NCBI RefSeq assembly: GCF_003014555.1
Contig: NZ_PYGE01000001.1
Coordinates: 1-64,000, forward strand
Source of the DNA: Haloactinopolyspora alba
GTDB lineage: Bacteria > Actinomycetota > Actinomycetes > Jiangellales > Jiangellaceae
Reading direction: 5' to 3'
DNA length: 64,000 nt
The translations under genes and the position numbers were made by a program. The notes beneath the pieces were generated by a model, which did no database searches, was not told where the DNA came from, and was given only the letters and a program-made list of their open reading frames with translations. Below, one piece after another: positions 57,766-59,842 of the stretch. How positions within the stretch are numbered: position 1 is the first letter of the stretch; every line of letters starts with the position of its first letter.

Positions 57766-58284
57766 GTGGATCTGTACAAGCCGGGCAATCAACACGATTC
57801 ATCTGTCATCAACTGTGGAGTCATCTATGACGGCACCGAAACGGGGACTGACGTCGGCACCGAAACCGGCGCGGACACCGGCACCGATGCAGGCTCCGAG
57901 GACGGCTCCGAGAACGGCTCCGCAGATGGTACGGACACCGGGACGGAGGCCGGGACCGAAACCGGCGACGACGCGGGCACCGACGCCGGGACCGAGAACG
58001 GCACCGAGGCCGGGACCGACGCGGGCGCGGACGCAGGCACGGAGACCGGGGCCGAGACCGGCGATCAGGCCGGCAGCGACGCCGGGACCGAGTCCGGAGC
58101 CGAGGCCGGCAACGACGCGGGCTCGGACGCCGGCACGGAGGCCGGTAACGACGCCGGCACCGAGAACGGCGAGGAACTGCCCGACACCGGTTCGCCCGGG
58201 CAGACCATGATGATGACCGCGGTGGCGTTGCTCGCCGTGGGCGGGGTCGTGGTCACCCTGCGCGCTCGGCGCGGAACGGTCTGA
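57766..58284 (+). CDS. Repeat-rich LPXTG cell-wall-anchored protein, N-terminus unclear
   Basis: About 172 residues from a tentative GTG. After a short leader come 28 tetrapeptides of the form [TSAND]-[DE]-x-G, then the sorting signal LPDTG (EELPDTGSPG), a hydrophobic helix (MMMTAVALLAVGGVVV) and the tail RARRGTV. This should be a sortase substrate on peptidoglycan. No signal peptide is seen in any frame upstream, so the gene may be 5'-truncated, or a start is misread. An AT-rich patch near 57707-57735 may be its promoter. Confidence 0.6.
   Translation: MDLYKPGNQHDSSVINCGVIYDGTETGTDVGTETGADTGTDAGSEDGSENGSADGTDTGTEAGTETGDDAGTDAGTENGTEAGTDAGADAGTETGAETGDQAGSDAGTESGAEAGNDAGSDAGTEAGNDAGTENGEELPDTGSPGQTMMMTAVALLAVGGVVVTLRARRGTV
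57835..58170 (+). repeat. 28 tandem 12-base repeats encoding x-[DE]-x-G
   Basis: 336 bases in an unbroken 12-base period, with variants such as TETG, TDAG, SEDG, TENG, DQAG and NDAG. Third bases vary, so the repeat is conserved at protein level more than at DNA level. The product is strongly acidic and flexible, like a wall-spanning stalk. Confidence 0.85.
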
Positions 58285-58300
58285 CGCACGACGAACGAGG

Positions 58301-58342
58301 TGTGCGGTTGGTCGCGTACGTCAGTGCGCAACCAACCGCACA
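58301..58342. terminator. Hairpin after the LPXTG gene
   Basis: TGTGCGGTTGGT (58301-58312) and ACCAACCGCACA (58331-58342) are perfect 12-base arms with an 18-base loop, 17 bases after the LPXTG stop. Probably a terminator for this gene and perhaps for the convergent MFS gene; no T-tract is seen. Confidence 0.55.
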
Positions 58343-58436: not shown

Positions 58437-58486
58437 TGATCAGGTGACCGAGCTCCGCCATGCCCCAGCAATCCGTCACCTGATCA
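58437..58486. repeat. Inverted repeat unit 1 (TGATCAGGTGAC arms)
   Basis: TGATCAGGTGAC (58437-58448) and GTCACCTGATCA (58475-58486) are exact reverse complements around a 26-base spacer. The same arms occur again in unit 2. Lies between convergent genes. Confidence 0.85.
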
Positions 58487-58509
58487 TGTCCAAATAGCGG
58501 TCGGAGAAC

Positions 58510-58557
58510 GATCAGGTGACGACGGCACGTGGAATCGCGCCGCAATGTCACCTGATC
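58510..58557. repeat. Inverted repeat unit 2 (GATCAGGTGAC arms)
   Basis: GATCAGGTGAC (58510-58520) and GTCACCTGATC (58547-58557) enclose another 26-base spacer of unrelated sequence. The right arm contains the stop codon of the MFS gene on the minus strand. Between the two units are 23 bases. Confidence 0.85.
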
Positions 58558-59789
58558 AACTCTGAGCGCCGATCATGTCGACGGCGCTCGTAGCGATTTC
58601 GAACCGCCGGCCGGGTGGTCGACGTGATCGTCTGGTCTGTGGGCAGTCGGCGGTCGATCGCCCAGGCAGCGAGAGCGCAGAAGGCGAACCCTGCTCCGAG
58701 CAGGCTGGAACCGGCCCATCCTGCGGAAGCGAACACGGCCGTGGTGGCGGCTGCACCGAGCGCTGAGCCGACCGAGTAGAAGACCATGTAGCCGCCGATG
58801 ACACTGCTGGCGAGATCCGGGTGCGCCGAAGTGAGACGGTGCTGGTTGCTGACATGCGCGGCTTGGACCGCGAAGTCGAGCACGACTACGCCGGCAACGA
58901 CGAGCCACAGCGCCCACGGAAGCTGCGCGATCGCCACCCACGAGGCGACGAGCAAGACGAGCGCCACACCGGTAACCGGGTTCGCACGCCCCGAGTCCGC
59001 CCATCGTCCGGCGCGCGCCGCGCCGATCGCTCCGGCGAGTCCTGCGATGCCGAACAGTCCGATCTGCGCCTCACTCAGATACCACGGCGCACCGGCCAAG
59101 GGCAGCGCCATGCCACTCCACAGCGTTCCGAAGGACGCGAACAGGAAGAACGCGATGAGCCCGCGAGTGAGGAACAGCCGTTCCCGGAACAGTCCGCCCA
59201 GCGCCGCGACGACCCGCACGTACCCTGCCGAACGTTCGGTCCGTTCGTCCGCGGGCAGCACCGCCAGGACGAGGGCGGCGAGCCCGAGCGCGAACACGGC
59301 GAGGACGAGGTAGACGCTCCGCCAGTCCCACACCTCGGCGAGCCAGCCAGCGAGGACTCGTCCACCGAGGATGCCGACGACCACGCCCGAGGTCACGACG
59401 CCGATGTTCGTGCCATGCTCGCCGGGCGCGGACACGGATGCGGCAAAGGCGACCGTGGTCTGCACCACTACCGCGAACACGCCGGCCATCGCCAGCCCGA
59501 CGAACGCCACCCATGCCGCATGGGCCGCGGCCGTCAGGATCACGCCCACCGCGATCAGTGTCAGGTGCACGGCGATGAGCCGACGCCTGTCGACCGCGTC
59601 GCCCAGTGGCACCAACAGCACCAGCCCTGCCAGATAGCCCACCTGTCCGGTCGCCACGATCCACCCGGTGAGCTGTGCCGGAACACCAAGATCGCGACCC
59701 ATCGGCTCCAACACCGGCTGAGCGGTGTAGATGCTCGCCACCGCGACACCACACACCGCCGCGAGCAACAGCCGTCGCCACGCACCCAT
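58548..59789 (-). CDS. MFS transporter (arabinose-efflux/YnfM type)
   Basis: 413 residues from ATG 59789 (MGAWRRLLLAAVCGVAVASIYTAQPVLEPMGRDLG). Twelve membrane segments; PLGDAVDRRRL is motif A. SIYTAQPVLEPM is characteristic of the YnfM/AraJ-like group of exporters. The last codons run into the inverted-repeat unit. Divergent from an HxlR regulator, a common pairing. Confidence 0.9.
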   Translation of the reverse strand: MGAWRRLLLAAVCGVAVASIYTAQPVLEPMGRDLGVPAQLTGWIVATGQVGYLAGLVLLVPLGDAVDRRRLIAVHLTLIAVGVILTAAAHAAWVAFVGLAMAGVFAVVVQTTVAFAASVSAPGEHGTNIGVVTSGVVVGILGGRVLAGWLAEVWDWRSVYLVLAVFALGLAALVLAVLPADERTERSAGYVRVVAALGGLFRERLFLTRGLIAFFLFASFGTLWSGMALPLAGAPWYLSEAQIGLFGIAGLAGAIGAARAGRWADSGRANPVTGVALVLLVASWVAIAQLPWALWLVVAGVVVLDFAVQAAHVSNQHRLTSAHPDLASSVIGGYMVFYSVGSALGAAATTAVFASAGWAGSSLLGAGFAFCALAAWAIDRRLPTDQTITSTTRPAVRNRYERRRHDRRSELIR

Positions 59790-59813
59790 CACGCCACCCC
59801 ATTCAGTAGCACA

Positions 59814-59842
59814 TTGCAACTGACTGGAACCTACGGCACAAT
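59814..59842 (+). promoter_or_regulatory. Candidate promoter of the HxlR gene
   Basis: TTGCAA and CACAAT are spaced by 17 bases. The word TGCAACT occurs at 59815-59821 and again at 59853-59859 in the same direction, flanking the transcription start region, and may be part of an HxlR operator. Confidence 0.4.

Follow-up and report, generated by a model that had tools for sequence, protein, structure and literature searches.

A dispersed family of fixed-geometry repeat arrays behind genes in Haloactinopolyspora alba, probably binding sites of an AbiEi/DUF559-type protein

Introduction

REP, BIME and REPIN elements are short words occurring in inverted pairs with variable spacers; they are extragenic, are present in tens to hundreds of copies and are associated with RAYT (TnpA-REP) proteins (PMC3116915, PMC8266576), whose genes seem to be flanked by the same repeats. 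Another type of spaced inverted repeat is bound by AbiEi, a winged-helix protein of the type IV toxin-antitoxin system AbiE, and by the related Rv2827c. These proteins bind 23-bp inverted repeats at their own promoters (two repeats 3 bp apart in S. agalactiae, four repeats with gaps of 13 and 4 bp for Rv2827c; PMC7319586), i.e., with centre spacings of 26, 36 and 27 bp. Directional ends with several protein-binding sites probably also occur in transposons such as Tn7, Mu and Tn402.

Here we analyzed a repeat locus in the soil bacterium Haloactinopolyspora alba (contig NZ_PYGE01000001.1 of assembly GCF_003014555.1, positions 1 to 64,000, hereafter the window). The original prediction described two inverted repeats with identical arms, unrelated spacers of 26 bases and 23 bases between the units, and suggested a protein-binding or mobile repeat rather than a chance terminator. 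We followed this up in the whole genome (designated G000) and in the other Jiangellaceae (22 family genomes in total, designated by G numbers).

Results

The window contains four exact copies of the 11-base word GATCAGGTGAC/GTCACCTGATC in alternating orientation, as follows.

58438-58448, minus strand: arm 1, GATCAGGTGAC on the plus strand
58449-58474: variable spacer, 26 bp
58475-58485, plus strand: arm 2, GTCACCTGATC
58486-58509: semi-conserved central spacer, 24 bp (family consensus about ATSTCCA..AT..GGAC..GAAAY)
58510-58520, minus strand: arm 3
58521-58546: variable spacer, 26 bp, whose reverse complement resembles spacers of two other arrays of the genome (L044 and L127)
58547-58557, plus strand: arm 4, containing the TGA stop codon (58548-58550, minus strand) of the MFS-like ORF 58548-59819
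58571-58581, minus strand: possible decayed head arm GATCATGTCGA (7/11 match), 13 bp beyond arm 4, which may be due to chance

The original prediction is thus confirmed, except that the middle gap is 24 bases with the 11-base word (the value of 23 counts a 12th base on one arm only). Six matches with up to one mismatch were found in the window against 1.6 expected, and none of 100 shuffles reached six. Both units fold into strong predicted hairpins on either strand (z about -6.8), but there is no U-tract terminator and no Rfam match. A separate strong inverted repeat (TGTGCGGTTGGTCGCGTAC/GTGCGCAACCAACCGCACA) is located at 58301-58342, just after the stop codon of the plus-strand gene ending at 58284, and is possibly its terminator or a member of another repeat family. 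Further upstream, low-complexity 12-bp repeats (57904-58190; Gly/Thr/Asp/Glu-rich coding) precede an LPDTG-like sorting signal and a hydrophobic tail, implying a probable cell-wall-anchored protein with a repetitive linker.

The word is not unique to this site. In the whole genome (5.5 Mb, 49 contigs) 258 exact copies are present, whereas the reversed control word has none. Nearly all of them belong to directional arrays, of which there are about 40 or more. We read about 35 arrays with their flanks; they share one layout, > 8 > 14 < 26-28 (or 37) > 24 < 26 > (the signs give arm orientation and the numbers spacer lengths in bp), sometimes with an extra leading arm or with an arm lost. The window array (< 26 > 24 < 26 >) is a truncated member with four of up to 6-7 arms, lacking the head. 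Of the 22 family genomes, 9 have exact inverted pairs. G008 has many words in a different, longer layout, and G001, which belongs to the same genus as H. alba, has none. A scan of genome contigs found only Jiangella muralis (G021), but its pattern was one base too short in the central spacer (23 instead of 24) and it therefore says nothing about the spread outside the family. No pair pattern was found in viral contigs, and in the literature searched the word was found only in unrelated papers.

The arrays are mostly located just behind stop codons. With a simple codon-usage gene caller, 17 of 35 arrays of G000 lie between converging genes, against 8 of 53 gene pairs of the window. Over six genomes, the head side faces the 3' end of a gene in 69 of 88 cases (tail side, 56 of 88) and is closer to the neighbouring gene (median 31 bp versus 92 bp; Mann-Whitney 3e-5). 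Note that the orientation effect taken over all genomes is modest (Fisher 0.05), and that in G013 the head side shows little 3'-end preference (10 of 17). In G008, C-rich/G-rich inverted flanks around many double arrays (L133-L149) suggest that these lie within or around a terminator hairpin.

Spacers vary in sequence, but their lengths are sharply fixed. Between a minus and a following plus arm we counted 26 bp (93 of 138 cases), 27 bp (31), 37/38 bp (7) and one spacer of 58 bp; between a plus and a following minus arm 14 bp (51) and 24/25 bp (68); and between direct arms 8 bp (38). Gaps of 46-47 bp are explained by missing arms. The steps from 14 to 24/25 and from 26/27 to 37/38 correspond to about one turn of B-DNA (~10.5 bp). 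Furthermore, the 26-bp spacers show no covariation and are no more self-complementary than spacers with shuffled halves. This fits protein sites on double-stranded DNA better than RNA hairpins; the paired inner segments that presumably characterize integron attC sites were not found either.

Three orthologous array pairs between Jiangella species have 165 of 165 arm bases identical, but only 213 of 267 spacer bases (Fisher 1e-12), including an insertion and a deletion that cancel to keep the length of a spacer. The arms therefore appear to be selected. Arrays are found at the same genes in different genera (sdhB, ilvE, a ROK/FMN-reductase pair, icd, a sigma factor), e.g., behind sdhB in G000, G007, G018, G015, G013, G014 and G008, and behind ilvE in G000, G021 and G014. 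Where they are missing, other inverted repeats often occupy the same place (behind sdhB in G009, G003, G021, G016 and G010). A different hairpin repeat, GTTGATCTTGGAGTAA..TTACTCCAAGATCAAC, occupies the position behind sdhB in species without the array (loci L216, L218, L224 and L225), and other families lie behind ilvE. Dispersal has also occurred, as L133 and L134 in G008 are near-copies at different loci, and L044 and L127 in G000 are 80% identical.

RAYT (Y1 transposase, PF01797) is encoded in none of the 22 family genomes, although the search control was detected in 5 of 14 named genomes. Interestingly, a single ORF of about 313 aa (contig C8, 171056-171994, minus strand) lies between the two inverted arrays downstream of sdhB in G000 (C8:170835-171000 and 172120-172294), with no second ORF of note. 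Close homologs are array-associated in eight further genomes. A homolog lies between two arrays in G008 (L151, near-identical arms of about 190 bp), in G014 and in G013 (frame broken), and beside one array in G018, G007, G015 and G011; in G018, G007 and G015 the array is present on one side of the gene only. In G001, which lacks our word, the homolog is bracketed by arrays of another word, TGACTCATGATC, with spacers of 13, 24 and 30, although in 276 kb of G001 this word was found only beside the gene and not dispersed. In a phylogenetic tree, the eight homologs with our word form one clade and G001 is in the sister clade. G008 and G014 use drifted words (TGCATCTGATC, GTCATCTGATC), which fits co-evolution but also decay. 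Note also that G021 possesses 165 words with mostly exact arms but only paralogs of about 33% identity; it may have lost the close homolog recently, be missing it in the assembly, or use another paralog.

The G000 protein itself does not reach Pfam thresholds. However, all 15 aligned homologs, including that of G000 (1.9e-11), match PADLOC AbiEi models, and more distant paralogs (about 33% identity) with the same architecture match AbiEi_4 (up to 2e-10) and DUF559 (up to 6e-4) in Pfam. D239 and E250 of the DUF559-like part are invariant. A PDB profile search gave only a weak endonuclease-like hit (3hrl, E 0.12), and no homolog was found in viral contigs or plasmids.

Of 69 homologs tested in 21 genomes, 58 have a matching repeat pair within 450 bp on both sides, against 1 of 150 control genes and 0 of 84 genes isolated by at least 100 bp on both sides (Fisher 2e-31). 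These repeats are mostly imperfect palindromes of 45-65 bp; in the distant paralogs they commonly have CCCATGATCAT at the outer ends and a paralog-specific inner part. The words share TGATC. One such gene with its repeats is vertically inherited at a fixed locus in seven species, with flanks 90-96% identical.

Discussion

The original interpretation, a protein-binding or mobile repeat rather than a chance terminator, is supported, and a protein-site array is better supported than recent mobility, since several positions are shared between genera. We propose that the feature belongs to a dispersed, REP-like family of directional multi-site arrays on double-stranded DNA with a non-HUH partner protein. 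In the absence of a binding experiment, it is inferred that the arms are recognized by the winged-helix part of the AbiEi-like/DUF559 protein of G000, cooperatively and on one face of the helix; the centre spacings of the arrays (25, 35 and 37 bp) are close to those of the AbiEi and Rv2827c operators (PMC7319586). Bound arrays would autoregulate the gene and act elsewhere as a nucleoprotein barrier at gene ends (between converging genes, or stopping readthrough), with copies spread long ago and then kept by selection. The role of the DUF559 (Vsr/REase-like) part is a guess: it may nick or cut at the sites and so have dispersed them. We consider this reading somewhat more likely than not (probability of roughly 0.58).

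The arrays are not members of the REP/REPIN elements, as the defining RAYT is absent; moreover, they are directional arrays of 5-7 arms with helically stepped spacing, their arms are conserved at orthologous sites, and the candidate partner is an AbiEi-like/DUF559 protein. They resemble AbiEi operators in having spaced inverted repeats with spacings that differ by about one helical turn beside an AbiEi-like gene, but they are dispersed genome-wide and lie on both sides of the gene, whereas 2-4 repeats are present at the AbiEi or Rv2827c promoter; furthermore, the protein carries a DUF559-like C-terminus. With multi-site transposon ends they share directionality and, in G008, inverted pairs. 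However, there is no second end at most sites, and no recognizable transposase was found between arrays, although this does not settle whether they are transposon ends.

These results provide a candidate function and a directly testable ligand for AbiEi-like/DUF559 proteins, which are present in many paralogs in these actinobacteria and carry a domain of unknown function, and describe a dispersed extragenic repeat family that cannot depend on RAYT transposases. In the literature searched, no paper links DUF559 with palindromic repeats in this sense or with AbiEi. If binding is confirmed, they would show how one protein can place identical nucleoprotein arrays behind many core genes (sdhB, ilvE, icd, ftsY, a sigma factor) and how site word and protein change together. 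More generally, it is possible, though tentative, that AbiEi-like/DUF559 proteins are a general class of repeat-partner proteins, each paralog recognizing its own palindromic or array-type word (with the shared core TGATC), being bracketed by it and, in some lineages, having seeded a genome-wide set of sites at gene ends whose word co-evolves with the protein. This would be a REP-RAYT-like system built on a winged-helix/REase-like protein instead of an HUH transposase.

Among the alternatives, a MITE/REP-like selfish repeat, spread by some other recombinase that binds the arms and without host function, for which 3' ends are merely tolerated insertion sites, survives best but appears unlikely. 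The near-copies in G008, the related arrays L044 and L127 in G000, the patchy distribution and the long inverted array pairs with cargo in G008 speak for it. However, arms remain unchanged at fixed orthologous positions while spacers diverge, no target duplications were seen in flanks read by eye, and no Y1 transposase is present in the family. More doubtful is an RNA element, i.e., tandem hairpins in 3' untranslated regions acting as bidirectional terminators or mRNA stabilizers. The predicted hairpins on both strands and the placement behind stop codons, often between converging genes, would be in line with it, but the exact arm sequence is conserved rather than pairing alone, spacer lengths jump by a helical turn, and inner pairing and covariation in the 26-bp spacers, a U-tract and an Rfam match are lacking. 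Recognition words of another chromosome-wide system unrelated to the AbiEi-like protein (DNA uptake sequence, nucleoid or segregation site) are very unlikely: tens of sites are spread along the chromosome and inverted pairs at gene ends probably occur in Neisseria uptake sequences as well, but the words are found in complex directional arrays and not mainly as singles, are patchy between close relatives, and the bracketing of the AbiEi-like gene, including that with a different word in G001, would remain unexplained.

In G008, a CsbD-like small ORF (Pfam E 4e-13) lies as cargo between two inverted arrays (L147, contig C34, 2700-2900), and in G014 a glyoxalase-like ORF (L169, contig C23, about 2200-2780) lies between two arrays downstream of sdhB, where G000 has the AbiEi-like gene.
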